DNA of 44,319 bases from Deltaproteobacteria bacterium (lineage in GTDB: Bacteria > Desulfobacterota > Desulfobaccia > Desulfobaccales > 0-14-0-80-60-11): positions 1-44,319 of the forward strand of contig VGSJ01000017.1 in assembly GCA_016875015.1 (NCBI GenBank), written 5' to 3'. Positions 15,274 through 31,080 of the stretch are shown one piece after another (within the stretch, counting starts at the first letter, position 1; every line of letters begins with the position of its first letter). The position numbers were made by a program, and so were the translations under genes. The notes beneath the pieces are model-generated. The model had not been told where the DNA came from. It saw only the letters and a program-made list of their open reading frames with translations, and did not search any database.

Positions 15274-15350
15274 CGGGACGTGGCGCAGACTGGTAGCGCA
15301 CCTGAATGGGGTTCAGGGGGTCGGAGGTTCAAATCCTCTCGTCCCGACCA
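15274..15350 (+). tRNA. tRNA-Pro (anticodon GGG)
   Basis: The full cloverleaf can be drawn. The acceptor is CGGGACG/CGTCCCG with A discriminator and encoded CCA. The D arm is GCGC...GCGC. The anticodon stem CCTGA/TCAGG has loop ATGGGGT, giving anticodon GGG, which reads CCC/CCU codons. The T arm contains TTCAAAT. The 3' half is the attachment site of the integrated element that follows. The gene stays intact after integration. Confidence 0.95.
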
Positions 15351-15356
15351 GCAATA
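15309..15356. repeat. attL: left attachment repeat in tRNA-Pro
   Basis: This 48-bp segment covers the anticodon loop to just past the CCA and is identical to 31033-31080. The match extends 7 bases further left with one mismatch (G at 15308 against A at 31032). It marks the left boundary of the integrated element. Confidence 0.9.
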
Positions 15357-15455
15357 TCAAAGGGTTAGCTCAAATGGCTGACCTTTTTTATTTATCAAAG
15401 TAAAATATTACCCCCCAGTTAACCCCCTCAGATTTTCCACCTGGCTTTCAGGCTG
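15357..15455 (+). terminator. Terminator after tRNA-Pro and AT-rich element edge
   Basis: At 15363-15390 the stem GGTTAGC/GGCTGACC type hairpin is followed by TTTTTTATTTA, a rho-independent terminator for the tRNA. The rest of the stretch is AT-rich with no gene. Confidence 0.65.
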
Positions 15456-15563
15456 CCGATCCGGGAAAAAATTTGCTCAAAAAGGGTTAAGGGAAAATCC
15501 TGACCTTACCGATTAAATTTGTGCTATCATGGCTTTAAGGATTTAACAGAGGAAACTTTTTAG
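15456..15563 (+). promoter_or_regulatory. Duplicated leader/promoter repeat, copy 1
   Basis: About 110 bases starting CCGATCCG and ending GAGGAAACTTTTTAG recur at 16320-16435. Both copies keep a CTGACC/CTGACT -35-like box, a 16-base spacer and TGCTAT/TACTAT as -10. This copy lies about 110 bases before the first cargo gene. It probably drives cargo expression independently of the element's minus-strand genes. Confidence 0.6.
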
Positions 15564-15673
15564 GTCTAACTCTCAGGGAAAAGAGGGCACCAAATAATTT
15601 TTGAATGCTGTAGCTGATCCTGCCCCATACAAATCCTTCCTCCTTGTAAAATAGAAATTAAGGGAGAATGACT

Positions 15674-16237
15674 ATGTCCGCTATATCAAAAGATTCAAAA
15701 TTTATTAAATCAACGACGTTGATTATTATAAGCTTGCTTTCCTTAATCGGTTGTATTAATTCTGATCGAGGCAAACTTGCTGAAGATGCTATACTTTCAA
15801 TGAAAAAGCTGGAGGCGAAATGCAATATTGGAATCAATTACAATGACTACACTAAAGATTTAGGAGAGACTGCTTACTCAGTTCGTCTATTCGTAGATAG
15901 TAAAAGCGCTGATAAGTTTCCAAATACAAAAACACATCTTGTTAAAGCCTTTGAACACTATAAATTTGCAAAAGATGTCTGGGAATTTACAGTGATTAAT
16001 TTCCGTAGGCAGCCTCCTGGATTTATTGGTATGGGAGGACCACATGAGGAAACCATGAGAAGCCACATATTAAAAACCTATCCGGATGCACCAAACGCAC
16101 TTTCAAGTCCCCCTCCTTGTTATCAAAAAGACTCATTATTGCCATACATTTGGAATCAAGCGTCTGTAGAAATAAAGAAAGCATCTGACTCCCTCGAAAA
16201 AGAAAATAAAAGCTGGTTTTCAAAGTTATGGGGGTGA
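15674..16237 (+). CDS. Putative lipoprotein cargo, paralogue of 17599-18249
   Basis: The 187-residue protein starts at the second ATG, which is properly spaced from GGGAG. A signal sequence ends in a lipobox (SLIGC, Cys near residue 30), so it should be a membrane-anchored lipoprotein. The mature region has MKKLEAKCNIGINYNDY and LGETAYSV. The protein at 17599-18249 shows the matching LKKLESRVQVGISYKDY and LGETHYKV, then a similar helix ending near a Trp (KDVWEF / NNIWGY). The two form one family of unknown function. The region is markedly more AT-rich than the structural genes, suggesting separately acquired cargo. Confidence 0.7.
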   Translation: MSAISKDSKFIKSTTLIIISLLSLIGCINSDRGKLAEDAILSMKKLEAKCNIGINYNDYTKDLGETAYSVRLFVDSKSADKFPNTKTHLVKAFEHYKFAKDVWEFTVINFRRQPPGFIGMGGPHEETMRSHILKTYPDAPNALSSPPPCYQKDSLLPYIWNQASVEIKKASDSLEKENKSWFSKLWG

Positions 16238-16319
16238 GGCTTGATGGGTTTGAAAAGAACCCCAGTCTCATGCTTTTTAATCCCACCATCATTTTTGCGC
16301 CGTTAGGAGTTTATAGGCC

Positions 16320-16435
16320 CCGATCCGCGAAGAATTCGCACAAAAGGGTTAAGTAAAATCCTGACTTTGCCGACTAATTTTGTACTATGATGCTTTCTTA
16401 AGGGCAATTCGGGTTTAAAAGAGGAAACTTTTTAG
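16320..16435 (+). promoter_or_regulatory. Duplicated leader/promoter repeat, copy 2
   Basis: The second copy of the leader repeat lies just upstream of the CoiA-like gene. The -35-like CTGACT and -10 TACTAT are 16 bases apart. The shared end GAGGAAACTTTTTAG lies 19 bases before the ATG. Confidence 0.6.
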
Positions 16436-16454: not shown

Positions 16455-17249
16455 ATGCAGGTTGCCCACGATCAGGCAAATTCCAGGTGCATAGCTTGGG
16501 AAGTCGAAAAGTCTCAAGGGCCTTTTTATTGCCCGGAATGCAAGGGCGCGTTGATTCTCAAGAAGGGCAGAGTACGTGAACACCACTTTGCCCACAGACC
16601 GCCCTTCACATGTCAGTACAGTAGCGGCGAATCTGAAATACATTACAGAGCTAAACGTGAACTATTTACCGCGCTTTCTGCCCATCCCCTCTGTAAAAAA
16701 TGTGAGCTTGAAAGAAGTCTTAAAGGCGTACGCCCTGACATCAGCCTCTACATTGAAAACCATCCGGTCGCGATAGAGATTCAAAGGTCCTCAGTAACGG
16801 TTGACGATATAATTAAGAAAGCGGAAGCCTATAATAGGCTTGGAACATATCTCCTATATCTTTTCCCAGAGTCAGGACCTAACCTTACCTGGCGGGACAA
16901 TGAACAAGAATACGTATGCAGGCCGAATCAATGGGAAAAGTTCCTTCACTCTATGTTTTTTGGAAGAGTTTACTACTGGGTAGGAGGGTTACAGGTAAGG
17001 CCGTATCATTTCTCCGAATTCAAAATATGGGTAGAACCAAGGTGGTGGTATGATGAGGATGGTGATTCCCATTATGGTGGCGATTATGATAAAAAATCAA
17101 AATTAATGAAGATGCCAATAGATCACCCGGATGTAACATTGAATATTGTAGAAGATTTCCATGGGAGAAATAGAGAAAGATACGAGTTGGCTAATTTTAC
17201 TATTCCAAGCTGTAAGCTTTGGATGGATGGTTATGACATTTGGTGGTAA
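16455..17249 (+). CDS. CoiA-like nuclease-domain protein
   Basis: This 264-residue protein resembles the competence-protein CoiA family. An N-terminal zinc-ribbon-like part has FYCPECKGAL and REHHFAHRP. Next come SGESEIHYRAKREL and a PD-(D/E)xK-type nuclease core, GVRPDISLYIENHPVAIEIQRS (split here as RPDISLYI and VAIEIQRS), with the expected Asp and Glu-x-Gln. CoiA itself acts on incoming DNA during transformation; stand-alone relatives occur on mobile elements. The C-terminal third is Tyr/Trp-rich and unfamiliar. The gene is AT-rich and sits in the cargo segment. A role in acting on competing DNA is inference. Confidence 0.75.
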   Translation: MQVAHDQANSRCIAWEVEKSQGPFYCPECKGALILKKGRVREHHFAHRPPFTCQYSSGESEIHYRAKRELFTALSAHPLCKKCELERSLKGVRPDISLYIENHPVAIEIQRSSVTVDDIIKKAEAYNRLGTYLLYLFPESGPNLTWRDNEQEYVCRPNQWEKFLHSMFFGRVYYWVGGLQVRPYHFSEFKIWVEPRWWYDEDGDSHYGGDYDKKSKLMKMPIDHPDVTLNIVEDFHGRNRERYELANFTIPSCKLWMDGYDIWW

Positions 17250-17309: not shown

Positions 17310-17528
17310 TTACAAAAGCTTAGGATGCGGACGCAAATCATTAGCTTTAATCTCAGCCTCACGATCGTTTTCTGCAAAGAACATAGTGATAAAATAATCA
17401 TGTCCTTCGAGATGCCGAACTGATTTCAGATTTTCTTCAAATTTTTGAGCATCTGAAAAATATTCAAAGTAGTTAACCAAATGGTTATCTCTATTATCAG
17501 TGTGAATTCGATACACATAATAAGGCAT
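17310..17528 (-). CDS. Hypothetical 72-aa protein
   Basis: A small soluble, acidic-aromatic protein starting MPYYVYRIHTDN, with an AGGGAGGGA ribosome-binding site upstream. It contains alternating charged segments (FEYFSDAQKFEENL, then FFAENDREAEIKAND) suggesting a compact alpha/beta fold. I do not recognise the family. It lies in the AT-rich cargo region and reads towards the CoiA-like gene. Confidence 0.6.
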   Translation of the reverse strand: MPYYVYRIHTDNRDNHLVNYFEYFSDAQKFEENLKSVRHLEGHDYFITMFFAENDREAEIKANDLRPHPKLL

Positions 17529-17598: not shown

Positions 17599-18249
17599 TT
17601 ACTGAGCTTTTCTTGTCTTTGATTTAGATGGGCGGGGGGGTGATTCAATTTCTGATTCCGTATTTTCAATCTTAATTTCATCAGCATTTACTAATTTAGA
17701 TGCTATTTTAATTTCATCAGATGCTTCGTTCCAAATAACAGATAGAACTTGTGTAATTGATATAAATGTTCCACCGCCACCATAAGAGCTTAATTTAACT
17801 TTACGATAGTCTTTCATTATCTGATCGACAAATATCTTCGCAGCCTCCTTCCTTCTTTCATCACCTTTCTTTATTAAATCATTAGTAATGCTATTAGTGC
17901 TATATTGATATTGATGTGGCAAAGGCGGTTCTTCTCTATATATTATATCAGATCCCTTACCAGCGAATTTATATCCCCATATATTGTTGGCATAAATATA
18001 ATGGTTTAACGCCTTCTCTATTGAATTTCTTAACTTAGGATTTTTGTTAGACTCAGGACTATCTAAATAGTGTTTGACTTTATAATGTGTTTCTCCCAAA
18101 GCTGGTCCATAGTCTTTGTAAGAAATGCCCACCTGCACCCTTGACTCAAGTTTTTTCAGAGCTTCAATAGCCTCTTTAGCTGATTGGGCATTTGCTATCC
18201 CAGCAAACCAAAAAATTAAAATAATAGAAATTGGCAGTAATTTTTTCAT
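17599..18249 (-). CDS. Secreted protein, paralogue of the 15674-16237 lipoprotein
   Basis: A 216-residue protein with a classical signal peptide (KKLLPISIILIFWFAGIANA, likely cut after ANA). The mature part shares the LKKLE-x-VGISYKDY, LGETHY and IWGY landmarks with the lipoprotein across the cargo region, but here the signal is cleaved rather than lipidated. A central Gly-rich SSYGGGGTF loop and a C-terminal lysine-rich tail (RPSKSKTRKAQ) follow. Function is unknown. Two divergent members in one 3-kb cargo segment suggest they act together or are alternatives. Confidence 0.72.
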   Translation of the reverse strand: MKKLLPISIILIFWFAGIANAQSAKEAIEALKKLESRVQVGISYKDYGPALGETHYKVKHYLDSPESNKNPKLRNSIEKALNHYIYANNIWGYKFAGKGSDIIYREEPPLPHQYQYSTNSITNDLIKKGDERRKEAAKIFVDQIMKDYRKVKLSSYGGGGTFISITQVLSVIWNEASDEIKIASKLVNADEIKIENTESEIESPPRPSKSKTRKAQ

Positions 18250-18363: not shown

Positions 18364-19143
18364 TCAGCCTTCTTTAGACTTCTTCTGGCCGTATGACTCA
18401 CGCCGTTTAGCGGTTATCAGGTCCTTGTTTTTGGCGTGTCTCTCCCGCCGCTTCGCCCGTTTAGCCTCAAGGCGGGCCTTGGCCGCTTCCGCCTCTTCCG
18501 GGTCCTTCTCGAAAAGGCTGATTTCCCCACAGCTTAATTGATCGCTTACCCTGATAATCATGCCCCGGACGGCGTGGGGTTGTTTGTCCTCCATTCTGGC
18601 GATTTCGGCGGGCCGGAGTTGAAAGAGCTTGTTTAAGAGATAGAGTCTTATCCCTTCGGAAAAGCTCCCGGAGCGCTCTTCCACCATCTTTTTCCAGGGT
18701 TCAAAATTGTGGGTATCCTTCCCCCCGTCCAGGGCTTCAATTATGGCTTGTAGGCGCTTGAGGGCGGCTTGATAAACCTTCCTGGCCTTCTCAACAGTCG
18801 TGTCATACTTGACGGCCAGGTCCTTATAGGTCCATTTATGAAAGAACCGGTCAATGAAAATCCCGGTCTGCTTCAGGTCAGGGTTGAAGCCCCCAAAGGG
18901 AGATTCCGCTTCCGTGGTGAAAACCTCTATGGGTTCACCAGTCTTATCCGAAACCTGGGGTAGCTCGGATTCGCGGATAAACTTCTTTGACTGGGCAAAA
19001 ATGATGCTGATTTCCTCCCCATTTTCGCCTACCCCCGTCTTCTCGAAAACGGTCAAGTTATCCTGGGCAAGGTAAAGTTCAACCGGCCTGCAAGGGATAC
19101 TGCACCCTTCCCGGCGGGCGCATTTTTCACAGACGCCTTTCAT
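18364..19143 (-). CDS. Putative regulator with Cys cluster and sigma-like helices
   Basis: The start is placed at the ATG at 19143, one base after the previous gene's TAA with AGG just upstream, so it is translationally coupled. The protein of about 259 residues opens with CEKCARREGCSIPC, a four-Cys cluster that could bind zinc or an Fe-S centre. Near 110-150, YKDLAVKYDTTVEKARKVYQAALKRL has the spacing of a sigma region 4-type helix-turn-helix. A second helical segment is LRPAEIARMEDKQPHAVRGMI. The tail is Lys/Arg/Glu-rich. It is the last gene of the packaging operon. A DNA-binding late regulator is my best guess. Confidence 0.55.
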   Translation of the reverse strand: MKGVCEKCARREGCSIPCRPVELYLAQDNLTVFEKTGVGENGEEISIIFAQSKKFIRESELPQVSDKTGEPIEVFTTEAESPFGGFNPDLKQTGIFIDRFFHKWTYKDLAVKYDTTVEKARKVYQAALKRLQAIIEALDGGKDTHNFEPWKKMVEERSGSFSEGIRLYLLNKLFQLRPAEIARMEDKQPHAVRGMIIRVSDQLSCGEISLFEKDPEEAEAAKARLEAKRAKRRERHAKNKDLITAKRRESYGQKKSKEG

Positions 19144-19144
19144 T

Positions 19145-19591
19145 TTACCTGAACCGGCCCACGGCCCCTCTTTTGATAAGGGGCCGTAAAATATCCAAAG
19201 CTCTTTGGCTGTGGCGGGGCGGATTCTGGCCGGGGTCAAGCTTGAATGAAAGCATTCCCCCCAGGCTCACGGCCTGCAAGCCCACGCCCTCAGTATCATA
19301 CCGGAGCAAATGCAGGGCTTCTTCCGCTTGGGCCTGCTTCAGGGCGGCCAGGATTTCGGCCTTTTGGATAGCCGTGTAACGATCCGCCAGGGTCTTATCA
19401 AGCTTCCACCACAGATTGAACTCAAGCTCATTCAGGGACCGGAAGGCCATAAGCAGGGCCGCGGCCTGGGTTGCCGCGTCCGCCGCTAACCAATCATCGG
19501 TATGGAGACGGTCTGCAAAATGGGCTTCCGCCCCGTCTTCATCTATCCAGGTGTTATATCCCGCGTCCGGGTAAGCGATTAGATCACTCAT
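19145..19591 (-). CDS. Head-tail connector candidate (DnaT-like/gp6-type family)
   Basis: A 148-residue phage protein starting MSDLIAYPDAGYNTWIDEDGA. Small phage proteins with this opening (IAYPDAGYNTW and a following WLAADAATQAAAL helix) are usually labelled DnaT-like or head-completion proteins and stand just after the minor head gene, as here. It overlaps the end of that gene by four bases. It would close the portal and offer the docking point for a tail, which in a satellite would come from a helper. Confidence 0.6.
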   Translation of the reverse strand: MSDLIAYPDAGYNTWIDEDGAEAHFADRLHTDDWLAADAATQAAALLMAFRSLNELEFNLWWKLDKTLADRYTAIQKAEILAALKQAQAEEALHLLRYDTEGVGLQAVSLGGMLSFKLDPGQNPPRHSQRALDILRPLIKRGAVGRFR

Positions 19592-20730
19592 TGGCTCATT
19601 AACTCCTTTAAATCCTTAACGCTTTTGAGTTTGCCTTGATAATAAAGGGACTCAACTTTCAGCTTGCCGGATTCCACCAGGTTAAAACGGGTAGGGCCAA
19701 GGGCTTCACGGGCAAAGGCCACGTCTCCGGGGTCTGAACTCTTGACCATGGATTGCATCCAATCGCGGTAGTTCATTTTTCGGTCCACAAACTTGACCTC
19801 ATAGCCCCGGTAAGCCGTGGAGGTTGTCCCGTCCTTGTGATGAACCGTCCGGGGATCGGTGTCAAGGCGGGCTATGCGCCGGGCCGCTTTGTCATATGCA
19901 GGCCCCGCGGCGTCTTCAAAGGGCACGGTTTTCCCGTCAACTATCACGTCTTTCATGACCGGGTAGAGGAAGCAGCGGCAACCATAATGCACGGGCGGCG
20001 CGGGGGCGTCTTTAAGATCATATTCCTGACTGTCCAGGAAGGCGCAATATTCACAAGTCTGGCGGTCAAGTTCGGCCTGAAAACGGAAACCCCTAAACCG
20101 GTCTGCATTCGCCAGGTACATTTCCCGTTCGGCCCAATTCGCCGCGCTATGCAGGGCGGTCCTCAAGACGCGCTGGGCAGACCTCGCGCCAATGTCCAGG
20201 GCCTTTTGAATGCTGGCCGCGGACTCTTTCATGCTTTCATCCAATAGCAGACTTTGCCGGGCCGCTTGAAGTACCCGCTCCGCGGCTGAGGTTTCCAACT
20301 TTTTCAGGTAGTCATTGAAGAAAGTTCCCTCAATTTGGCTGCTATCCCACCAGGCCAGGGCGCGTTCTTTTGTGACATGTGACCACTTCAAACCCGCCGA
20401 CACGTTTTCGGGAAGACTTCCTTCAATGATCCCGTTGATAATTTCCGGCGTGGCCATGGCCGTTTCAACAGCCTTGGCCTTCATGTCCTGGCCTATGCCC
20501 TGGTAGATTTCGGCCAGGGTTTTTTCAATTTCGGCCTTCCGCTTGAGAAGAAGGGCCTTCTTCCTTTCCAGGGAAGGGGTTGATTCCGCCGCCGCGGTCA
20601 ACCTCATGAGCTTGCCGGTGATGGTTTCTAAGGCCCCTTCCAAGGTTTGGGCAATATCATCCCCGTAGGCATTGACCAAGCCTTCAAGCCTGTGGGTGAA
20701 TTTATAGCGTTCGTCAAAATAATTATTCAT
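19588..20730 (-). CDS. Phage minor head protein (SPP1 gp7 / Mu F-like)
   Basis: A 380-residue head-morphogenesis protein. The C-terminal domain carries the family landmark RQTCEYCAFLDSQEY followed by HYGCRCFLYPV, the Cys-rich gp7/MuF signature (about 225-275). The N-terminal part is long and helical. Such proteins are packaged in the procapsid and can be ejected with DNA. The ATG overlaps the stop of a small upstream frame (ATGA) and the 3' end overlaps the connector gene. Both overlaps support a single operon. Confidence 0.85.
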   Translation of the reverse strand: MNNYFDERYKFTHRLEGLVNAYGDDIAQTLEGALETITGKLMRLTAAAESTPSLERKKALLLKRKAEIEKTLAEIYQGIGQDMKAKAVETAMATPEIINGIIEGSLPENVSAGLKWSHVTKERALAWWDSSQIEGTFFNDYLKKLETSAAERVLQAARQSLLLDESMKESAASIQKALDIGARSAQRVLRTALHSAANWAEREMYLANADRFRGFRFQAELDRQTCEYCAFLDSQEYDLKDAPAPPVHYGCRCFLYPVMKDVIVDGKTVPFEDAAGPAYDKAARRIARLDTDPRTVHHKDGTTSTAYRGYEVKFVDRKMNYRDWMQSMVKSSDPGDVAFAREALGPTRFNLVESGKLKVESLYYQGKLKSVKDLKELMSQ

Positions 20731-20952
20731 GTTATTCCCATAGAAAGCCGGGCGTATTCGGGAGAAGAAAGGTAATAAATATCAAGCGCTTGCACGAAGG
20801 GCAGTCTCCCCGGAAGGCCGAAGCCCTCCGGGGATTCCGCTTTGCTGCATTGACCACAACGACAACGTGGGAGTTGCCCCCAATGGGCTTCCCGCCTGTT
20901 GGCCGCCAGGCGGTAGGCCGTCTCCCCCGGCCTGTCTGGTAAGGGCGCGCCA
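20727..20952 (-). CDS. Small unassigned phage frame with no standard start
   Basis: A reading frame ends with TGA at 20727, overlapping the minor-head ATG as ATGA, the usual coupling in this operon. Its residues look like protein: LPDRPGETAYRLAANRREAHW, then RCRCGQC, LPGRLPFVQALDIYYL and SPEYARL. It opens after a TAA at about 20953 and has no ATG, GTG or TTG early on. Either a non-standard start (CTG), a frameshift from the overlapping frame that begins ATG at 20971, or a sequencing error must be assumed. A 79-codon frame in another register covers the same bases but has a less protein-like composition. Confidence 0.4.
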
Positions 20953-20985
20953 CGACTCGCGCCCCGCCCATATCGTTACACCACG

Positions 20986-21489
20986 CTAACCGGCTGTGGT
21001 GGTTGTGGTTGAAGTGGTGGTAGTCGTTGTGCTGGTGGTGGTTGTGGTAGTCGTTAAGCCGGTAAAAGGCCGCGTGCTGACTTCCCGCGTTAGGTGGGCG
21101 GAAAAATTAATCCCCGTGGCCACGGACCCGGAAACCTCAGTATAGAGCCGCACGTAAGGCCAGACGTAAAGCCCCTTCACATTAGAGAAGGGCAACACGT
21201 ACCGGCCCGTCAAGGAATCCTGATCCCCGCCAAGGACTTCTTTGGCCCCGATTTCCAGAATGGCCAGGTCTTCCACATAGGCGCTGAAGTCATGGGCGGC
21301 GGAACCTTGAAGCTTGACCCGGTAAAGCTCATCGCCAGAGTCAATCTCCAAGGCCGCCACGTCAATAACCAGCTTCCCTTCTACCAGTTCACGCCCCAGG
21401 TTGACCACCTTGGCTTGACCGCCCATGGCCCCGGCCAAATTGGAAGCCACCAGGCCCGCTTCTTTCAGTTCATGTTGTACGTCAAACAT
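20986..21489 (-). CDS. Capsid cement-like protein (Bbp16-type) with Thr-rich tail
   Basis: A 167-residue structural protein encoded directly after the major capsid gene. The start MFDVQHELKEAGLVASNLAG, the acidic strand-rich middle (LVIDVAALEIDSGDELYRVKLQGS) and its position resemble the Bbp16 cement protein of BPP-1-like podoviruses. The last 25 residues are almost only Thr and Ser, encoded by ACC/ACT-type triplet repeats. This is unusual for a cement protein and may form a flexible surface spike on the capsid. Confidence 0.65.
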   Translation of the reverse strand: MFDVQHELKEAGLVASNLAGAMGGQAKVVNLGRELVEGKLVIDVAALEIDSGDELYRVKLQGSAAHDFSAYVEDLAILEIGAKEVLGGDQDSLTGRYVLPFSNVKGLYVWPYVRLYTEVSGSVATGINFSAHLTREVSTRPFTGLTTTTTTTSTTTTTTSTTTTTAG

Positions 21490-21507: not shown

Positions 21508-22428
21508 CTAAGCGTTCTTCACGCCGCGGAGACGGGCGGCGGCGCGGGGATGAAAGACGGCCAGGCCGCAAATCCACTCAATCAGGGTCCGGTAGGCCGT
21601 CCCTCCTGAGTATAGGCCCATGTCAATTACGTCCATTTTGCCGCATTGCAGGCCGGAGACGTATTCCTTCGCGCCGAAGCGGACGGCGTAAATGCTGGTA
21701 CAAACGGAAGACCCGCCGCCAGGGGCCGCTTCATCAAAGGCCAGGATCGGGTTATCGGCTTCATCGTTTTCGATAACGGCGATAGGCACGCCCGCATAAG
21801 CCGTAAGCAGACGGCCAAAGGCGTCCGAAACGGTTTCAATGGCCTGGTTAGCCGCCCTGACCAAGGTGGAGATTTTCCGGCGCATGGTCTTGTTCATGAA
21901 AAGCACGTCCGGGCCGCCCGCCACGGCGTCAATGAGTTCGTCCAGTTTAGGTAGGCTCAAGACGTCTCCCCCGGAAGTCGAACCCATGTTAATCACCTGG
22001 CCGCCGGTCAAGCGTTTTTGTAGGCCGTCAAACCCCTTGGGGTCCTCGTCCGTGTCGCCCTTGAAAAAATTTTTGCAGTGGAACAGGGCCGCGGCCTTGG
22101 CCTTCAGTCCGTCATGAATGGCCCGAAGGTCATTGATGTTTCCCTGAGTCTTAACCAAGGCCCGGTCAACATCGGAGACGCCGCCCATAATGGCCAGGGT
22201 TTCGGTAATGGGGTTGATTACCCCGGTTGATTCCGTGTAGCCTTCGCCGATCCCGCGGAAGGCGATACCCGGAAGGGCCTCTTCCTGATTGTACTTATAG
22301 GAGTCGGACGCCACGTCCCGGAAGGGCAACCGTTCCAGGATCGGGGAAGTCCGGGGGAAGACTTCAATCACCCCGCGCTGCAACGGGGTCTGTGAGAGTT
22401 TCGCAGCTTCAAGCAAAGTCAGAGACAT
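21508..22428 (-). CDS. Major capsid protein (HK97 fold, BPP-1-like)
   Basis: A 306-residue capsid protein starting MSLTLLEAAKLSQTPLQRGV. Its landmarks follow the order seen in capsid proteins of this type: an N-arm with VIEVFPRTSPILERLPF, an E-loop region with YTESTGVINPITETLAIMGG, then a P-domain helix and the A-domain with LDELIDAVAGGPDVLFMNKTMRRKI. No separate protease gene and no long N-terminal delta domain are seen, which fits use of the separate scaffold-like protein encoded just upstream. Confidence 0.85.
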   Translation of the reverse strand: MSLTLLEAAKLSQTPLQRGVIEVFPRTSPILERLPFRDVASDSYKYNQEEALPGIAFRGIGEGYTESTGVINPITETLAIMGGVSDVDRALVKTQGNINDLRAIHDGLKAKAAALFHCKNFFKGDTDEDPKGFDGLQKRLTGGQVINMGSTSGGDVLSLPKLDELIDAVAGGPDVLFMNKTMRRKISTLVRAANQAIETVSDAFGRLLTAYAGVPIAVIENDEADNPILAFDEAAPGGGSSVCTSIYAVRFGAKEYVSGLQCGKMDVIDMGLYSGGTAYRTLIEWICGLAVFHPRAAARLRGVKNA

Positions 22429-22836: not shown

Positions 22837-22879
22837 TTCTTGAACCTCCATTTAACGCCTGGGAGGGCGGATTTTTCGG

Positions 22880-24202
22880 TTACAAAACGCTTTTGCCGGA
22901 GTTCAGTTCCCGGCTTTCTTCCTGAACCTGAAGGAGATACGCCAGGGCTTCTTCACGGGTCTTCAGGTCCGGGTTTTGTTGCATGGCTATATCTACGGGG
23001 CTGATAACGCCGAACCCTAACAGCTTCTCCCAAGCTTCCGCCTGGGATTTCGGGTCAACTTCGGGGCGCGGATCGGCGAAGTCAATGTTGAGCGTGGCCG
23101 ATTCTGAGAGTTTCCGGCTTGGCGAATGGGCGTTCCATACCGTGCGGATAAGCGAGAAAAGCCGCTTTTCATAGGAGCGCCACAGGGCCACGTCTTCAGC
23201 CCGCATTTCCGCCAGCTCGCGGGTGTCAACAATTTTGCTCAGGCCGCTTGCTTCCTGGGGATCGGTTGACATGGACGCGGCGGATAGGCCATGGCTGACA
23301 CAACCCCACTTGATGAGCTTGTCAATGGCCCCCACCACTTCTTCAATCCGGGCCTGTTGATTCGCAAACCCTATTTCTCCATTTTCAGGGAGTTCCACCA
23401 GGGAGCCGGGGTCAACCTTCAAGGACCCGCCGCCTTGACCGCCCTTGATGTAGCCGACGCCGAAGGACTGGGTTGACAAGAGATAGAGAAGATCAGTCAG
23501 CTTCAGGTTAACGGCTTCCTGCATGGAGATAAGATCGTCTCCACCCGGAAGCCAAAAGTTTGAAGAGGGCGGCGGATAATCGAAAACCGAAAGGAAGGGC
23601 AGGACGCCGTAAGGGTTCGCGGCTTCCTCAATCGTCTGGCCCCTGTAATTCAATCTTTCCCAGGTTTCCGGCGTCCAGTAGGAATACTCAACCTCTTCAA
23701 TCTTGTCAGAGGTACCGAAATCAGTAACCAGGACCTTAGACAAGATTTCCGGGCTTTCCCCGGTTTCCACGTCCAGGATATTGCCGGTCAATATGTCCAG
23801 GTCCAGCCGCTCGTTGCGCCAAACCGGGCGGAGCAGGATCGTCTTTAAGAGCTTGGCGTACCGGCTGGCCAGCTTCAGCTTCACGTCCAGGGCCATTGAT
23901 TCAACAATCCCGGTGTAAAGCTCCTTATCGCTATCGGTCCCGTCAATTAGCCTGGTGGGGGCTTCCCGGTAAACCTGGGCAAGATTAACAATCACCTTTC
24001 GAACCACGTTCAGGCACACCTTGACCATGGCGGAAGGATCGGAGAAAAGCTGATTAAGCCGGGTTTCCAGGTGGTCAAGCTGGCTATCGTGAAAATAATC
24101 AAGCCGCTTGGCCGTTTCTGTCTTGCGCGCCAAGGAAGTCGCGCTGTCGGCCTGTAGGTTCAGGCGGCTAAAAACTATGGGGACTTGGCTGGCAAAGAGC
24201 AT
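22880..24202 (-). CDS. Phage portal protein
   Basis: A 440-residue protein from the ATG at 24202, ten bases after the terminase stop; the frame extends upstream into the terminase gene without need. It starts MLFASQVPIVFSRLNL. Portal-like landmarks are the N-terminal helical clip region, KVCLNVVRKVIVNLAQVY, the wing segment with FLSVFDYPPPSSNFWLPGG and DLISMQEAVNLKLTDLLYLL, and a long C-terminal crown helix region. The portal dodecamer forms the DNA entry vertex of the capsid and docks both terminase and the tail or connector. Confidence 0.85.
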   Translation of the reverse strand: MLFASQVPIVFSRLNLQADSATSLARKTETAKRLDYFHDSQLDHLETRLNQLFSDPSAMVKVCLNVVRKVIVNLAQVYREAPTRLIDGTDSDKELYTGIVESMALDVKLKLASRYAKLLKTILLRPVWRNERLDLDILTGNILDVETGESPEILSKVLVTDFGTSDKIEEVEYSYWTPETWERLNYRGQTIEEAANPYGVLPFLSVFDYPPPSSNFWLPGGDDLISMQEAVNLKLTDLLYLLSTQSFGVGYIKGGQGGGSLKVDPGSLVELPENGEIGFANQQARIEEVVGAIDKLIKWGCVSHGLSAASMSTDPQEASGLSKIVDTRELAEMRAEDVALWRSYEKRLFSLIRTVWNAHSPSRKLSESATLNIDFADPRPEVDPKSQAEAWEKLLGFGVISPVDIAMQQNPDLKTREEALAYLLQVQEESRELNSGKSVL

Positions 24203-24212: not shown

Positions 24213-25973
24213 TTATGCGGCCTGGTAAATCCTGGCCCCGTCAAATCTGACCTTGCTTTCAAAGAATTCCTGCAAGTTCAGATCATCGTCTAAGCGGATT
24301 TTCTTGAACTCTTGAAAGAATGCTTCCACCTGCTTATGGGCCTGGCAGTAATCGGCGCATAAAAGTTGTTTTGATCCGCCCATGAGGTAGCAGAGTTGAC
24401 GGCGGGGACTCTTGTTCTTGCACTGGAAGCTTCCCAGGACATAAGCGTGTAGGATTTGCTCACGGAGTGAATAGACTGCCCAGTTCAAAGCGTATACGCA
24501 GTCATCGTGCAGCTTGCTTGAGGCTGCGCCGAAGGAATATCGCCCGGCCCTGCCACTCGTGAAGGTAAAGTTCTTGAGTTCGTTCTCCAGGACCTTCAAT
24601 TCATGGCTGAATTTGATTCGACCTTCCCGGAAAATTCTCGCCAATTCTACGAAACTCGAATGTTGCGCCCGCTCAGATGCTGTCAAAACCTCGTGAGGTA
24701 TCCCCTGGCTGTCCAGAAATGGTAAAACATCGACGATTTCATAGTTTTCACAGATGATATTCGTCAATTTGTATCGTTCATGGGCCTGGAGAATTGCCTT
24801 CTTAATGGCCCTCCCGGTGTTGAGGGTGAAAACGGTCATGTCCAGAACGTAATAAATCGGCTCGCCTGTCTCCAGTGAGGCAATTTTTGCAACCGTCACC
24901 AGCACTGAGCTATCACCGCCCAAAACCGGGGATAGATTTTTAGCCCGGTCCAGGCCCGCCCCGACACGGTGTGCTCTGCCGTTTGTAAGCGCCTGTAAAT
25001 CGGCCACAGGGATTTTGTATGGTTCTTTCGCCGCCTGAATATCGGCAAGAGTGAACAAGCTGTTGCGGGCCTGTGACCGCAAACCCAGCAGGTCTCTTTT
25101 CCAATCCGGCTCCAGGCCCGTTTTCATCAGCCTCTTAGCTCGGTTTCGGTCAATCCAGGCCGGGGCCTTGGCTTCAAATTCTCTCCAATCCCGATAACAG
25201 ACATGGCGGCAAAAAATGGTGGGGTCTGCTTCCGCTTCTTTCTGGAGGGAATGGACAGGCCCGCCGTCAACGTCAACGTTGCTGTCCAGGAGGATCAGAG
25301 AATTTTCACTGTCTAATAAGCTGGCCTGCAAAGCGTTAAAGGGGCCAAGATCGGGGGAGGCGTGGAAATCGGAAACCCACAGGCAGTTAAGCCGGTCCCC
25401 GAATGCCGATGACAGGCTCAACCCCTCCCCAAGCTGAATAGCCGATTGCAGGGGCGGGAAGGTGATTTCATTGACAAAAATAAACTCTTCCGGGATCAGC
25501 CGGGCCAGACGCGGGGTGTTGGCGATGATCCGTTTTAGGGTCCTGAACTGAGTGCGGCGGGAGTGGTCAGCCGTGTTGCCTAAAAGCTGGGTTACGTGAT
25601 TTTGCCGGGAAGTCGTGAGCCATAAGACCACCAGGGCGAAGGTTGTACTTTTTCCGTGTCTCCTGGGTTCAATAAGCAGGGATAGGCTATGCAGAAACCG
25701 CCCGCTTTCGTCTGTGGCCAGGATTTCATCAATGGCCCCCCTTTGCTCCTGGGTAGGCTCCCATGGCGCATATTGGTTATTGCGCTGCAAGACACAAGGC
25801 TGAACGTCTGCAACCCAGTTCCAAAATCCATAGGGGCCGGGGGCGTTCCACCTGGCCAGAATCTCCCCGTCCCGGTCGCGCCGGTTGCCACGGCCAGGGC
25901 CGCCGGGGTTGCCGGGTTGGAATTGGCGGGAAGCCGGGTCAGGGGCCAAAAAGAGGGGCTGATAAGGGATCAT
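24213..25973 (-). CDS. terL: Terminase large subunit
   Basis: A 586-residue packaging motor. The ATPase half (about 80-330) has the Arg-rich Walker A-like EPRRHGKSTT, then LLGNTADHSRRTQFRTLK and a Walker B-like LNCLWVSDFHA. The nuclease half (about 350-560) has an RNase H-like arrangement with Asp in GAGLDRA, Glu in IICENYEI and a distal Asp in LHDDCVYALNWA. Its first codon overlaps the stop of the preceding small gene (ATGA). It cuts concatemers and pumps DNA into the portal. Confidence 0.88.
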   Translation of the reverse strand: MIPYQPLFLAPDPASRQFQPGNPGGPGRGNRRDRDGEILARWNAPGPYGFWNWVADVQPCVLQRNNQYAPWEPTQEQRGAIDEILATDESGRFLHSLSLLIEPRRHGKSTTFALVVLWLTTSRQNHVTQLLGNTADHSRRTQFRTLKRIIANTPRLARLIPEEFIFVNEITFPPLQSAIQLGEGLSLSSAFGDRLNCLWVSDFHASPDLGPFNALQASLLDSENSLILLDSNVDVDGGPVHSLQKEAEADPTIFCRHVCYRDWREFEAKAPAWIDRNRAKRLMKTGLEPDWKRDLLGLRSQARNSLFTLADIQAAKEPYKIPVADLQALTNGRAHRVGAGLDRAKNLSPVLGGDSSVLVTVAKIASLETGEPIYYVLDMTVFTLNTGRAIKKAILQAHERYKLTNIICENYEIVDVLPFLDSQGIPHEVLTASERAQHSSFVELARIFREGRIKFSHELKVLENELKNFTFTSGRAGRYSFGAASSKLHDDCVYALNWAVYSLREQILHAYVLGSFQCKNKSPRRQLCYLMGGSKQLLCADYCQAHKQVEAFFQEFKKIRLDDDLNLQEFFESKVRFDGARIYQAA

Positions 25974-26356
25974 GCTTCGCCCCCCAGGATTGCGGCCAGG
26001 CTTGGGGCGTCTTTTGGGACGGCCTTGCCCTTCGCGACCTTGGGGCGGAAGCCCACCAGGATGTGGCGTAGGGCATGGAGCTTGGGGAGGTAGTCTTTAG
26101 GGATAGGCTTCCCGGAAATGAAGCCCTCATGGGCGGCTGATAGCTCAAGGATAAGCACAACCGCGGCGGCGATTTGCAGGCGTTGCGTCTGGGTAGGCTT
26201 CCGGGCGGGGAAGAACTCAGCTTTGAGTTTTTCAGCCCAAATACAGACCCGTGCCTTCCGGTCATAGATCGGCTGGCCGGTGTTAGGGTCTTTCCAATCG
26301 GGATCGCGGTCTTTCCACCTGGTACGGCCCACAATAAACCCCCGCCACAAAGGCAA
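25970..26356 (-). CDS. Probable terminase small subunit
   Basis: A 128-residue basic protein encoded directly upstream of and overlapping terL, the standard place of the small subunit. It starts MPLWRGFIVGRTRWKDRD, has a helical centre (TQTQRLQIAAAVVLILELS) and a Lys/Pro-rich end. I see no clear helix-turn-helix, so the call rests on position and size. It would recognise the packaging site of the element and so decide which DNA enters the capsids. Confidence 0.5.
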   Translation of the reverse strand: MPLWRGFIVGRTRWKDRDPDWKDPNTGQPIYDRKARVCIWAEKLKAEFFPARKPTQTQRLQIAAAVVLILELSAAHEGFISGKPIPKDYLPKLHALRHILVGFRPKVAKGKAVPKDAPSLAAILGGEA

Positions 26357-26934: not shown

Positions 26935-27594
26935 TCAAAGACCGGCGCACGCCCTGGCCAGGGTGATATAGTATTCAATTTGGGGCGGTTGTTTTAATCC
27001 CCGCTCACGAAGTTCCTGTTGAATGTCCTCTAATAAGTCCAGGGTTTCTTCCATCACTTCGCAGCAGCCCCCCAAAATGACATGACGCCAACTCCGCCCC
27101 TCCCAAATGGCACGTATGGTGCTCTCCGCCACAAAGAAATAATCGGCCACTGTAGAGGCGGGGAGCATTCCCTTCACCATCTTAATATGCAGAACTTCTT
27201 CTTCCCTTAATTTAGCCTGGCTGTTGCGCTCCCCCGCCCATGCGCCCGAGGCGGCGTGCAACCTCAAATGAGGGCCATGGGCCATAGGCTCTATGTGCCG
27301 GGGGTTAACGCAGCTCCTACAGCCGCATACATGGTGCGCGTCGTAACCTTCGGGGATCGGCCCACGGTGAAGCTCATACGCGACACGGGCGGCCCGATGA
27401 GTCTGGCCGTCCAGACTCACAAGCGGGTACCCGCGCTGATCTGTGTGGCCAGTCCACAGCCGACAACCACCAGGCCCGCGCCTGGAATTGGCCCGTAATT
27501 TTTGCCAGACCGCCCGCTCTTCCGGGGTCAAGATTTTGACCACCATTGGCCGCTCTTCCCGCAACTCTGCTCCCGTACTTGGAACGACAACCAT
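26935..27594 (-). CDS. HNH endonuclease
   Basis: A 219-residue protein from the ATG at 27594, which has AAGGGGGG eight bases ahead. The HNH/beta-beta-alpha-metal core reads YDAHHVCGCRSC then VNPRHIEPMAH (about 95-125), with the Cys pairs expected of a structural zinc. The N-terminal part (GGCRLWTGHTDQRGYPLVSL) is typical of HNH_3 proteins. A C-terminal helix-turn-helix-like stretch is TVADYFFVAESTIRAIWEG. HNH proteins encoded just upstream of terminases assist cos cleavage in HK97-like phages and are part of known capsid-forming satellites. Confidence 0.82.
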   Translation of the reverse strand: MVVVPSTGAELREERPMVVKILTPEERAVWQKLRANSRRGPGGCRLWTGHTDQRGYPLVSLDGQTHRAARVAYELHRGPIPEGYDAHHVCGCRSCVNPRHIEPMAHGPHLRLHAASGAWAGERNSQAKLREEEVLHIKMVKGMLPASTVADYFFVAESTIRAIWEGRSWRHVILGGCCEVMEETLDLLEDIQQELRERGLKQPPQIEYYITLARACAGL

Positions 27595-27677
27595 TTTGCT
27601 TTCCCCCCTTATTTTATTTTGCAAGCAGTTTCGATATGTTGCCCGATTTATCCCAATTTATAACTGCTTGCACTTGA

Positions 27678-28502
27678 TTACCACCTGTGGGGGTTCATAA
27701 CAATCAGTCCATGCACTTCCTGCAAGTGCCGCCCTTTAGGAAGCAGTTCATGAAGCTCTTTTAAGAAACCCTCAAAGTCCTTAACCGGTCCCTGGCGTCG
27801 AAGGAAGTCGAACGCCGGTTTATAAAATTCAAGAAAATTCACACAGTCTTCTATCAGGCCATACCCAAATCTTGCTAATTTTGATTTGAACTCTTTTGTA
27901 AGTGGGAGGTACCCCCCAAAATCGTCTCTGGTTTTGAACTCTACCCCGTCCAGGGCGTTCCAGGATGAGTCCTTGGCTTCCAATTCCGACACTACGGCTT
28001 CTTCCCACCGCATTTTGGTTAGCTGAAGAAATCCTGGCAAATTGATCCCGTACAACGGCGTGATGGCAACTTTCGGGTCAAGGCGGACCTTTATGAGGTA
28101 GTGATACTCAGAAAGAGAAGCAAGTATCCGGGCGATTGTGCGCTCTCCCAGCCCACAACCTCCAATACCGATGGCGGGTTTACCCCTCACAATGTCCAGG
28201 ACGCGGATGAATTCCACCGGCTTTTCAAAAACCAGCGTCCGGTAAATCACATGCCTGAGAACAACCGCGGCGGCTTCCCATGAAAAGGACTTCCTGTCGC
28301 CGCCATCGGCGGCCAGGCTGCCAATTAACATATCAAGGCCGCCGCCCTCAATCAGGGCTTTGAAACACTTCCGGTAAAACGGGGGTAGCAGGTTCATTGC
28401 GGCGGAAATCTCAGTTCCAAGGTGATATGGAATTTTGCTCATTTCTGCCTGTAATTTGCTCTGCTGTTTTTTTTGATGCAGATGCCGCCTGGCGGCTGCC
28501 AT
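27678..28502 (-). CDS. Putative winged-helix replication initiator
   Basis: A 274-residue protein. The first 25 residues are basic; a start at the Met at residue 21 (MSKIPYHLGTEI), behind AGG, is also possible. The middle has a winged-helix pattern: GERTIARILASLSEYHYLIKV followed by a wing and YGINLPGFLQL, reminiscent of plasmid and satellite Rep proteins. No primase or helicase motifs are present. A cluster of repeated palindromes lies directly upstream, as with origin iterons or autoregulatory operators. Replication initiator is my inference from fold pattern plus context. Confidence 0.45.
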   Translation of the reverse strand: MAAARRHLHQKKQQSKLQAEMSKIPYHLGTEISAAMNLLPPFYRKCFKALIEGGGLDMLIGSLAADGGDRKSFSWEAAAVVLRHVIYRTLVFEKPVEFIRVLDIVRGKPAIGIGGCGLGERTIARILASLSEYHYLIKVRLDPKVAITPLYGINLPGFLQLTKMRWEEAVVSELEAKDSSWNALDGVEFKTRDDFGGYLPLTKEFKSKLARFGYGLIEDCVNFLEFYKPAFDFLRRQGPVKDFEGFLKELHELLPKGRHLQEVHGLIVMNPHRW

Positions 28503-28537: not shown

Positions 28538-28660
28538 AATATACCCGTAAGGGTATATTCTTATAGACTGCCAAATTGGCAGTACCTTACATGGGGGATA
28601 CTGCCATTATGGCAGTATGGTACTGCCAATTTGGCAGTACCCCCAGTCCCACCAGTGGGA
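28538..28660. repeat. Cluster of five palindromes (iteron/operator array)
   Basis: Five inverted repeats lie within 123 bases: AATATACCC-GTAA-GGGTATATT (28538-28559), ACTGCCAA-A-TTGGCAGT (28567-28583), ATACTGCCA-TTA-TGGCAGTAT (28598-28618), GGTACTGCCAA-T-TTGGCAGTACC (28619-28641) and TCCCA-CCAG-TGGGA (28647-28660). The middle three share the core ACTGCCA-N3-TGGCAGT, with centres 33 and 22 bp apart, close to whole helical turns. They lie between the excisionase-like gene and the replication-like gene. Confidence 0.8.
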
Positions 28661-28670: not shown

Positions 28671-28892
28671 TTATTCTTCCGGTGTCACTTTCTTCCTTTC
28701 CAAGTATTCCAGTACATCGCTCAATTTAAATAAGCGCCTGTGGCCGAACTTGTAATGAGGAATGAGACTCTTGCCGGAAGAAACCCAGTTATAAACAGTC
28801 TTCGCCGATCCCACCACTCCCATAATTTCCAAATCACCGGGAGACAAATATAATTTCGACATAACCTCTTGTACTGTAGGCTTCCGTGGCAT
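28671..28892 (-). CDS. AlpA/excisionase-like HTH protein
   Basis: A 73-residue protein from the ATG at 28892, eight bases after GGGAGG. It has a MerR/HTH_17-type helix-turn-helix (MGVVGSAKTVYNWVSSGK) followed by the wing HYKFGHRRLFKLSDVLEYLE. That is the fold of phage excisionases and AlpA-type activators. AlpA-like proteins are master regulators of satellite excision and replication in Gram-negative PICIs. It is encoded just beyond the palindrome cluster, which it may bind. Confidence 0.75.
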   Translation of the reverse strand: MPRKPTVQEVMSKLYLSPGDLEIMGVVGSAKTVYNWVSSGKSLIPHYKFGHRRLFKLSDVLEYLERKKVTPEE

Positions 28893-29165
28893 TCTCATGA
28901 CCTCCCGCAATTTAATTATTAGTTAGAATACATCACATTATCAAGATTGCAAGTTGCTTTTGAGTTGTTTTTTAGTTGACAAAGAATGTTACTTATACAT
29001 GATACATATTATAGGATACGTGTTCATTCTTCCCATATCACCTAATTGATTGCATTATTTAATTATTTCTGCAAAATTACCTAATGACATTAGTCGCACA
29101 AAATAAAAATGGCCCGGACGCGGGAAACGCCGGGCCATGGGTAACAGAGTCTTTGTTTTAGGGGA
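28893..29165 (-). terminator. AT-rich control region with terminator
   Basis: At 29104-29140 a hairpin ATGGCCCGGCG...CGGGCCAT is followed on the minus strand by TTTTTATTTT, ending the lipoprotein/integrase transcript. The AT-rich rest (28915-29090) should hold the promoter of the AlpA-like gene. Confidence 0.65.
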
Positions 29166-29435
29166 TCATCTGCATTTTGCGGCCCTGATTCCGTTAGCAA
29201 TCGCCGCGGAAACCGCCATGCCTTCCGGTGACCACTGCCACACGACCGGGGGGCCGCCCAAGCCGCTCGAACTGTATTCTTGTCGGGCGGCCTGTAGGTC
29301 AGCCTCATTCTTGAACATGCCGGGCACCCCTTCCGCCCACATATACTTCCCGGCCTGGTGAACCGTGGGGCCGGTCGCGCAGCCGCAAAGGCTAATACAG
29401 AGCAATAGCATGGCAGTCAGGATTTTAGGTTTCAT
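29166..29435 (-). CDS. Small lipoprotein in the integrase operon
   Basis: An 89-residue protein from the ATG at 29435 behind GGGGGG. The signal sequence KPKILTAMLLLCISLCGC carries a lipobox with Cys near residue 18. The mature part (GKYMWAEGVPGMFKNEADLQ, then WSPEGMAVSAA) is not a family I know. It starts seven bases after the integrase stop and is followed by a terminator, so it is co-transcribed with the integrase. A surface lipoprotein in this position could be a superinfection-exclusion factor; that is speculation. Confidence 0.7.
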   Translation of the reverse strand: MKPKILTAMLLLCISLCGCATGPTVHQAGKYMWAEGVPGMFKNEADLQAARQEYSSSGLGGPPVVWQWSPEGMAVSAAIANGIRAAKCR

Positions 29436-29442
29436 TTTCGAA

Positions 29443-30720
29443 CTACCCCCCGTTTTCCGCCATCGCTTCTTCTTTCTTAATTTTGGGCGAGAGCAATTCA
29501 CCACTCCGGGCCGCTGCCGCATTGACTACACTGGGGGCCAGGCTCGCATATTTTAAGGTCGTTCTGAAATCCCGATGGTTCATTAACTGTTGGATAACCT
29601 GCAAGTCGGTTCCATTCATGGCGTGGTAGCTTCCGAAGGTGTGCCTCAGATCATGGAAGCGGATGGTATCGGACAACCCCGCCGCTTTCCTAATCCGCCG
29701 CCAGGGACCTTTAAAATCAACTCGCTCGCCGCCGTTCTTGCCTGGAAAGACATAGGGTGATTCCGTCTTAGGTACAGCTTTAAGAGCCTCAATCGCTTCC
29801 GGGGGGACTCGCTTAATCACCGTTTCGGTTCCCTTGCGCCGGTGTGAGATCAGCAGGGTTATCATTTCCCTTTCAAAATCTATGTGCTCCCACTTCAAGG
29901 TAAACAGTGTTCCCCGACGCACTCCGCAGAATAAGGCAACCTTGATAAAACCCACGCTCGCCTTATCCGGCCACGTCTCCATAGCGTCCCATAGGGCCGC
30001 TAACTGTTCCTCAGTCAAAAACCTGGGAAGCTCATTATCCAGGTGAGGCATAACAACCTGCTTATGGTCAAAGGGGGTTGGCCCTGTATATTTGAAGTCC
30101 GGGCCTTGAGCGAATTTGTAAAGCCGATGCAATAAGACAAGCTGATGTTTGATAGTGGCCGCAGTAAACACTTTGCCCCGCTTGCTCAGATAAGGCTTGC
30201 CGTCTTTAGTCTTCCCTTTGGTCATGTCTTGCTTTAGGCGGTTCACGTCCATTGCGGAGATAGCATCCAGGCGCTTCGCGCCAAACCTGGGGGCCAAGTG
30301 TTTTTTATAGTTCAACAGATCATCATCCCAGGTCTTTTTATCCGTCTTGGCCGATTCGAGATACTTCTCGAAGACTTCGCCAAGCGTTAAGCTTTCCTTG
30401 CGAAGGCGCTCTTTTTCGGCTTCTTCCTCTTGGCGCTCTTTCTCTGCCAGTTCCCGCTTTTGCTTCAAGGTAATGATTTTTTTTCCATGTAAGTGGTCCA
30501 GGCGACATTCATCACGTTTTGTTTTGGCCTGAGTGACATTCATTCCCTCAGACGCCCAACCCACGCGCTCTTGAATAATTTTTCCGTTCACTTTGTACCG
30601 GATATAAAATGATTTATCCGGCTCGCCGCGATACATCCGGGAATGATGCTCCAAATACCTTATACCCCCACCTGCATTATGCCACTTGAGTTTAGCTTTC
30701 GGTTCGTTTGGCTCATCCAT
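29443..30720 (-). CDS. int: Tyrosine-type site-specific integrase of the satellite
   Basis: A 425-residue recombinase from the ATG at 30720, placed behind GGAGGTGG; the upstream ATG would precede that site. It has an N-terminal arm-binding domain with a long Glu/Lys coiled coil (about 80-110), the core-binding domain, then the catalytic domain with Arg in CGVRRGTLFTLKW, HDLRHTFGS (His-x-x-Arg), MNHRDFRTTLKYA with the second His and the nucleophilic Tyr in LKYASLAP. It lies about 300 bases from the right attachment repeat and should catalyse integration into and excision from tRNA-Pro. Confidence 0.92.
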   Translation of the reverse strand: MDEPNEPKAKLKWHNAGGGIRYLEHHSRMYRGEPDKSFYIRYKVNGKIIQERVGWASEGMNVTQAKTKRDECRLDHLHGKKIITLKQKRELAEKERQEEEAEKERLRKESLTLGEVFEKYLESAKTDKKTWDDDLLNYKKHLAPRFGAKRLDAISAMDVNRLKQDMTKGKTKDGKPYLSKRGKVFTAATIKHQLVLLHRLYKFAQGPDFKYTGPTPFDHKQVVMPHLDNELPRFLTEEQLAALWDAMETWPDKASVGFIKVALFCGVRRGTLFTLKWEHIDFEREMITLLISHRRKGTETVIKRVPPEAIEALKAVPKTESPYVFPGKNGGERVDFKGPWRRIRKAAGLSDTIRFHDLRHTFGSYHAMNGTDLQVIQQLMNHRDFRTTLKYASLAPSVVNAAAARSGELLSPKIKKEEAMAENGG

Positions 30721-31032
30721 TTTTACCACCTCCAAATATTACCCCCGGCTGAATTACCCCCCTGGTTACCCCCCCTGAACGGGCAATATATTGCAATCAA
30801 CCCCCGGTTTTTTGCGGTTAAACCCTGCTTTCAGAGAAAATAATTGCAAATAACTTATTGTTTGTCAAGCATTTTTAGGTGATTGGGAAATATTGGGAGA
30901 AGGGGGGAATATCTTTGCAATCCCTAAATCCAGAACTTATTGAGATAACTATCTTATTTAAATTTCTAATTTATTTGATATCACTAACTTATTGATATCA
31001 CTATATTTATTAATATTTAATGAAACTGAATA
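30721..31032. repeat. AT-rich attachment arm with repeated integrase-site motifs
   Basis: No gene lies between the integrase start and the right attachment repeat. Three related direct repeats occur: CTTATTGAGATAACTATC (30936-30953), TTTATTTGATATCACTAAC (30970-30988) and CTTATTGATATCACTATA (30988-31005). Repeats of this size beside a core site are typical arm-type binding sites for integrase or excisionase. The very AT-rich context would ease bending. Confidence 0.55.
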
Positions 31033-31080
31033 GGGTTCAGGGGGTCGGAGGTTCAAATCCTCTCGTCCCGACCAGCAATA
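31033..31080. repeat. attR: right attachment repeat (tRNA-Pro 3' fragment)
   Basis: Identical to 15309-15356. Just outside, the anticodon-loop base differs (A at 31032 instead of G), so this partial copy would carry an AGG rather than a GGG anticodon. The same fragment also lies 9 bases from the stop codon of the next integrase, so it can serve as left end of a second element. Confidence 0.88.

Follow-up and report, generated by a model that had tools for sequence, protein, structure and literature searches.

Capsid-forming phage-inducible chromosomal islands (cf-PICIs) encode their own capsid, head maturation protease, portal, connectors, small and large terminases (TerS and TerL) and an HNH nuclease (PMC10690885), have an average size of ~14 kb (PMC10803314) and use a capsid of family PF05065 (PMC13230959). 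Two Streptomyces satellites, MulchRoom (14.8 kb) and MiniFlayer (17.4 kb), have small heads by microscopy, in the case of MulchRoom with tails of helper length (PMC10690885), and the episomal Vibrio satellite cf-PISP (TG54) likewise has its own head genes and no tails (PMC13230959). Here we describe a 15,724-bp element inserted in the 3′ end of a tRNA-Pro gene on a 44,319-nt contig of a Deltaproteobacteria bacterium (VGSJ01000017.1, assembly GCA_016875015.1; hereafter the window). It is very probably a temperate satellite that makes its own heads and takes its tail and lysis functions from a co-resident phage. A sequence-only reading of the window had proposed a tail-less, capsid-encoding element; the follow-up analysis confirmed this, on stronger grounds than were claimed for it.

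The element is delimited by the following features:

15274..15350, + strand: tRNA-Pro (GGG anticodon), the integration target (ARAGORN)
15302..15356, + strand: left attachment repeat, the tRNA-Pro 3′ end plus 6 nt (repeat comparison, core search)
31026..31080, + strand: right attachment repeat (repeat comparison; empty site in L126 and L127)

The two 55-nt direct repeats are identical at 54 of 55 positions (98%), and the earlier description of a tRNA-Pro element of ~15.7 kb between perfect tRNA-derived repeats was therefore accurate except for one base. A 25-nt core of the repeat, allowing up to three mismatches, occurs at only two places in the window, both of them in the repeats, and was not found in any of 100 shuffles. 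In two related genomes of the same family (L126 and L127), the tRNA-Pro gene runs uninterrupted into a flank that corresponds to the window sequence on the far side of the right repeat (91% identity over 158 bp and 90% over 136 bp). The insert of 15,724 bp thus integrated precisely, and its site also exists in the empty state. A second integrase gene (31089-32207) ends 9 bp past the right repeat, and an HsdR-like gene of type I restriction (32403-35432) comes next; the two probably represent an earlier island at this tRNA-Pro gene.

Read leftwards from the right repeat, the element encodes an integrase, a lipoprotein-like protein, an AlpA-like helix-turn-helix (HTH) protein, iterons, a replication initiator (Rep)-like protein, an HNH nuclease, a candidate TerS and TerL. 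These are followed by portal, scaffold, capsid, cement, a small open reading frame (ORF), a MuF-type protein, the adaptor Ad1, a sigma-region-4-like gene and accessory genes. Family searches agree with the earlier naming of the integrase, AlpA-like regulator, HNH, TerL, portal, capsid, minor head and connector genes. The packaging and head genes are as follows (L005, L006 and L032 are relatives):

25970..26356, - strand: candidate TerS, by position (directly before TerL in L006 and L032 too)
24213..25973, - strand: TerL, with a Walker A-like motif and a conserved Cys-rich C-terminal part (phrog_9, 2.8e-6; Terminase_6C, 1.2e-3; alignment A1)
22880..24202, - strand: portal (Pfam SPP1_portal, 1.1e-5, just under cut-off; 27/27 elements)
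22441..22851, - strand: scaffold-like protein, between portal and capsid (27/27 elements)
21508..22428, - strand: major capsid protein (phrog_212, 3.2e-80; Pfam GP7, PF20911, 1.5e-19; profile matches to BPP-1, epsilon15 and Carin1)
20986..21489, - strand: cement protein, a Bbp16-like jellyroll with a Thr-rich C-terminal tail (AlphaFold model comparison)
20732..20971, - strand: small ORF between cement and MuF (56-71% identical in L005 and L006)
19588..20730, - strand: MuF-type minor head protein (Pfam PF04233, 4.7e-9; phrog_241, 1.2e-35)
19145..19591, - strand: head-tail adaptor Ad1, the last structural gene (phrog_477, 1.7e-4; homologues better, 2e-28)

In the Pfam and PHROG scans of the window genes, the candidate TerS, the scaffold and the cement gave no informative family match of their own; TerS and scaffold were named from position and conservation in relatives, and the cement also from structure. 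The AlphaFold model of the cement (mean pLDDT 70) resembles the BPP-1 cement protein 3j4u_H with a VIA Z of 11.9 (rmsd 2.5 over 114 residues), with Carin1 second (Z 11.0) and the next unrelated fold at 8.9, in support of the Bbp16-like cement first proposed. The Thr-rich C-terminal tail is also found in L006 and L032 and is missing in the other 13 members aligned. The same scans recognized no protease among the window genes, the only protease-named PHROG, phrog_595, matching the MuF gene; together with the gene kept between portal and capsid, this bears out the prediction of a separate scaffold-like protein and no protease.

The resemblance to cf-PICIs extends to size class, integrase, AlpA-like regulator, HNH nuclease, terminase, portal, capsid and connector, the absence of a tail, and the proposed use of helper tails (here deduced from gene content). 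A cf-PICI is expected to have TerL, portal, capsid and connector genes of its own and none for a tail, as this element does, and the shared logic and size (~14 kb on average, PMC10803314) could suggest a true member of that family. However, cf-PICIs are listed with a PF05065 capsid and a head maturation protease (PMC13230959, PMC10690885), and the element has neither: PF05065 was not matched in the window Pfam scan, the capsid instead giving phrog_212 and PF20911 (GP7), and its head set includes a separate scaffold and a BPP-1-type cement. Hosts differ as well, being Enterobacteriaceae, Lactobacilli and similar for cf-PICIs and mostly Thermodesulfobacteriota here. Membership of the cf-PICI family, for which the element had been put forward as a candidate, fails on capsid family and protease and is highly unlikely. 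cf-PISP (TG54) also differs from the element, by a PF05065-type capsid and plasmid maintenance (PMC13230959). Two further candidates for comparison were set aside, AH14b since it has no head genes (PMC4936722) and the Charybdis elements since the paper was unrelated; a literature search on sulfate reducers and their kin found no described satellite.

MulchRoom and MiniFlayer are almost the same as the element in architecture, with the order TerS-TerL-portal-scaffold-capsid-adaptor and no protease, and MulchRoom also has a tyrosine integrase. In contrast, their capsids belong to phrog_10, primases are absent from them, and their direct terminal repeats are long. Neither hidden Markov model (HMM) searches nor profile comparison revealed homology in terminase, portal, scaffold, capsid or adaptor (hhalign probability at most 31% for all pairs, and at most 8% for TerL, capsid and adaptor). 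On these sequence comparisons, the two groups are likely to have arrived at the same strategy from separate origins.

The head had been described as podovirus-like and BPP-1-like. The capsid profile does match the podoviruses BPP-1 (1.7e-8, residues 19-155) and epsilon15 (3.4e-6), as well as Carin1 (8.6e-6), over the first ~150 residues only. The element thus shares the N-terminal half of its capsid with BPP-1 and epsilon15, and with BPP-1 the jellyroll cement too, whereas there is no whole-length capsid sequence match and the tail type is not shared. The closest whole-length capsids among named phages are those of Paenibacillus phage Tripp and its kin (53% identity), which are long-tailed and encode a tape measure, and the head is therefore not podovirus-specific. 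The earlier label is only half right, the nearest relatives of shell and neck being long-tailed phages with tape measures. BPP-1 and epsilon15 capsids were not among the best 50 matches in the capsid structure comparison, which says nothing against kinship. In the same comparison the capsid model was nearest to Family 2 encapsulins (VIA Z 21-22; phage capsids among the matches listed reach no more than 18.1). A profile search with the capsid found no encapsulin by sequence, and for that reason we do not build on this likeness; judged from the model, a link between the phage capsid family and encapsulins is possible.

With TerL alignment A1 as query, 59 related loci were recovered from IMG/VR and 7 from genome contigs in GTDB. 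Six integrated copies, the window element included, occupy five kinds of tRNA gene and span 14.6-15.9 kb, and two further contigs carry direct terminal repeats. The relatives with defined ends are:

L006: 15,708 bp, tRNA-Ala, bounded
L029: 15,228 bp, tRNA-Met, bounded
L032: 15,077 bp, tRNA-Lys, bounded
L033: 14,597 bp, tRNA-Asn, bounded
G295 element: 15,922 bp, tRNA-Lys, bounded, in a one-contig genome
L058: 14,455 bp, contig with direct terminal repeats
L071: 15,577 bp, contig with direct terminal repeats

TerL, portal, scaffold and capsid are found in 27/27 elements compared, and cement, Ad1 and MuF in most. The window element fits this family in having TerL, portal, scaffold and capsid in order within ~15 kb and without a tail. 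A second subfamily (L294 and its kin, 12.6-16.2 kb, several on isolate-derived contigs) has the same head-gene order. Of seven named genome contigs with the TerL, four are labelled in the tree as Thermodesulfobacteriota and two as Pseudomonadota, and the seventh is a 'Deltaproteobacteria' metagenome-assembled genome placed under Myxococcota. The host range is wider than the Desulfobacterota suggested from the sequence, as members also occur on contigs assigned to Pseudomonadota. For the window's own host, 16S gave 86% identity to D. widdelii over 838 bp, too little to decide the phylum. L058, with terminal repeats of 110 bp and no integrase found, is possibly an episomal satellite, and one of 72 accessory genes scanned jointly across members is ParA-like (member not assigned). 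A 27.4-kb contig carries two related satellites (L084 and L085) in tandem, ~16 kb apart and 83-91% identical in patches. L030, in Desulfosarcina widdelii, has a split portal and large inserted ORFs and is probably defective.

The head set resembles that of larger phages up to Ad1, and absence of the tail is also what a decaying prophage remnant would show, one that descends from a complete tailed phage and whose genes for tail and lysis disappeared in this host. Against this, the same cut after the neck adaptor or MuF, at near-equal size, recurs in at least eight bounded elements, which sit in different tRNA genes and whose hosts are divergent; empty sites exist, and reading frames are intact. 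The ratio of nonsynonymous to synonymous substitution rates (dN/dS) between window and L006 is 0.14-0.35 for nine structural and late genes, which are under purifying selection. Moreover, this portal and TerL are found only in small elements. We regard decay from a full prophage as strongly disfavoured, its probability being very low.

The capsid also occurs in full-size phages, and contigs carrying it were compared. Among capsid-bearing contigs of at least 10 kb, those with the satellite portal (n = 30) do not exceed 19.9 kb except for one 27-kb tandem-copy contig, whereas those without it (n = 23) reach 57 kb (Mann-Whitney p = 0.0014). A tape-measure gene is present in the larger contigs G413, G414, G416 and G420 and in none of the satellites L006, L071 and L294. 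In G413, a barely similar portal is followed by MuF, an ORF in the scaffold position, capsid, cement, Ad1, further genes in neck positions and a 1066-aa tape measure, while the satellites end at Ad1 or MuF. Long-tailed phages resemble the family in parts of the head (Tripp capsid 53% identical; capsid, cement, MuF and Ad1 of G413 and G416 homologous) and differ in an unrelated or barely related TerL and portal, a tape measure and tail genes, and a size of 28.7-54 kb. The search turned up no prophage of full size that carries the head module as a whole, full phages sharing capsid, cement, MuF and Ad1 only; normal-size prophage relatives of that kind would have spoken against the satellite, as the sequence-only reading itself had noted. 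TerL and portal had no real match in 50,697 phage records, nor did TerL in 72,556 plasmids, and two divergent TerLs gave only partial matches of 20-25% in these records. In a tree built from 54 capsid rows, 2 changes account for the satellite label, which was set by portal and size and not by the capsid, compared with 17.7 when the label is shuffled. The satellite capsids form nearly one clade, strict monophyly being broken by L284, a 24.6-kb contig on a long branch. This near-single clade, together with the shared TerL, portal and capsid, upholds the suggestion of a distinct satellite lineage.

The genes that follow Ad1 in the window are accessory:

18364..19143, - strand: sigma-70 region-4-like protein, proposed late regulator (Pfam 6e-4, below cut-off; directly after connector or MuF in several elements)
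17599..18249, - strand: exported accessory protein, paralogue of 15668-16237 (cluster F16; 88% identical in L005)
17310..17528, - strand: small accessory protein (relative 52% identical, same place in L005)
16455..17249, + strand: CoiA-like nuclease, accessory (Pfam CoiA_N, 1.6e-13; CoiA_nuc, 6e-10)
15668..16237, + strand: exported or lipoprotein-like accessory protein, paralogue of 17599-18249 (cluster F16, also L029 and L042; no Pfam match)

The statement that all genes lie on one strand holds for the replication and structural genes and not for the last two of these. Small exported proteins of cluster F16, two copies of which are in the window element, recur in other satellites (L029, L042). 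Upstream of the + strand accessory genes are near-duplicate stretches (15478-15563 and 16339-16435; 78% over 54 nt, 92% over 25 nt), which from their sequence may be a shared promoter.

No window gene matched a tail or lysis family at a meaningful E-value in the Pfam and PHROG scans, in line with the tail-less, lysis-less content first reported. The bounded relatives have no recognizable tail or lysis genes; those of their genes that were scanned one by one gave no tail match at E ≤ 0.01, and no tail gene was recognized in L294 of the second subfamily. Past MuF and the head, the neck genes recognized in bounded members are Ad1 only, plus Hc1 in L058, and the other genes at the expected tail position encode a methyltransferase, a DndB/DpdB-like protein, a lectin-like domain and unassigned ORFs. 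Very small tailed phages exist, and some genes after Ad1 are without assignment. One could therefore imagine a self-sufficient small virus with a short or unrecognized tail of its own, or one that spreads tail-free. However, a conserved tail module would be common to all members, and the genes after Ad1 or MuF vary (methyltransferase, DndB/DpdB-like, CoiA-like, exported). In L033 almost nothing follows MuF, which ends ~430 bp from the repeat, and no lysis gene was recognized. Self-sufficiency is accordingly very unlikely, if slightly less so than the readings above.

The remaining genes, between the right repeat and TerS, concern integration, regulation and replication:

29443..30735, - strand: tyrosine integrase (Pfam PF00589, 2.4e-26)
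29166..29435, - strand: small lipoprotein-like gene (lipobox-like N-terminus read from sequence)
28671..28910, - strand: AlpA-like HTH regulator/excisionase (Pfam HTH_17, 2.1e-9; phrog_66, 2.9e-5)
28567..28641, no strand assigned: three palindromic iterons with spacing 22/33, candidate origin (sequence analysis; equivalent in L032)
27678..28502, - strand: replication initiator-like protein, 274 aa (homologue at the same place in L032 beside equivalent iterons)
26935..27624, - strand: HNH nuclease (Pfam HNH_3, 3.9e-8; phrog_826, 7e-25)

The Rep-like gene had no informative match in the Pfam and PHROG scans and was assigned by position and conservation in relatives; L032 has three iterons at the same place (spacing 23/33). 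Members exchange replication modules, carrying DnaG/AAA primase-helicases, D5-type primases or a small Rep as in the window. The HNH gene precedes TerS/TerL and also resembles free-standing homing nucleases, its presence in most relatives not being established. Head genes without tails, kept under selection, might also mark a domesticated gene-transfer agent or defence particle. Yet these elements are precisely bounded, have their own integrase, Rep and iterons, use varied tRNA sites, have empty sites in relatives and occur as terminal-repeat contigs. Their distribution is patchy and rare (TerL profile in 5/395 genomes and capsid profile in 5/395, weak matches included), and such domestication is extremely unlikely.

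The satellite would thus insert into tRNA-Pro by its own tyrosine integrase. Upon induction, presumably by a helper phage acting through the AlpA-type regulator, it would excise, and its own Rep would replicate it from the iteron origin. Capsid would assemble on the scaffold around the element's own portal, the TerS/TerL pair would package one ~15-kb genome, and the BPP-1-type cement would lock the shell, the neck being closed as far as Ad1. Because nothing is encoded beyond Ad1, a complete tail and the lysis functions must come from a co-resident phage. Ad1 is common with long-tailed phages, which points to a long-tailed helper.

Several points weigh against this scheme. Helper dependence, induction, packaging of the element's own DNA and tail capture are inferred from the genes. 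The joined attP was not found in IMG/VR, and searches of the host assembly for tape measure, sheath, HK97 capsid and Ad1 did not pin down a helper: there was no match to PF10145, PF20155 or sheath, and only a 4.8-kb fragment with HK97-type capsid and portal genes. Metagenome contigs may owe their short length to fragmentation, a problem that does not touch the examples bounded by tRNA genes or ending in terminal repeats. A small reverse-strand gene in L006 has a sub-threshold match to a tail family (phrog_5260, E 0.02). The joint scan of the 72 accessory genes covered the best 25 of 62 matched families, and one tail match could hide there; for this reason the majority of genes lying where a tail would be expected were scanned on their own. 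In the G295 genome, an HK97-capsid locus (L136-L137, about 3,408,000-3,432,000) was considered as helper and rejected, ten of its proteins having been scanned with no tail match. With HK97-type capsid, portal and Hc1 beside methyltransferase and helicase genes, this locus is possibly another head-encoding island.

The family of such elements was previously unnamed. We consider it probable that it is a clade of near-single origin, derived from the head module of a long-tailed phage cut after Ad1, that spread over Thermodesulfobacteriota and Pseudomonadota with a capsid unrelated to that of cf-PICIs. Tail theft by satellites with their own heads would thus have evolved at least three times (cf-PICIs, MulchRoom/MiniFlayer and the present family). 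If this is true, an own head combined with a stolen tail is a solution that evolution has reached repeatedly, one that is not special to PICIs, and capsid-making satellites extend to sulfate reducers and related bacteria. The TerL and portal profiles are diagnostic and allow further members to be found; tools that look for satellites by PF05065 capsids would probably overlook these. Ad1 would be a clean cut point where the parts of satellite and helper have to match, making tail compatibility testable with the relatives available.

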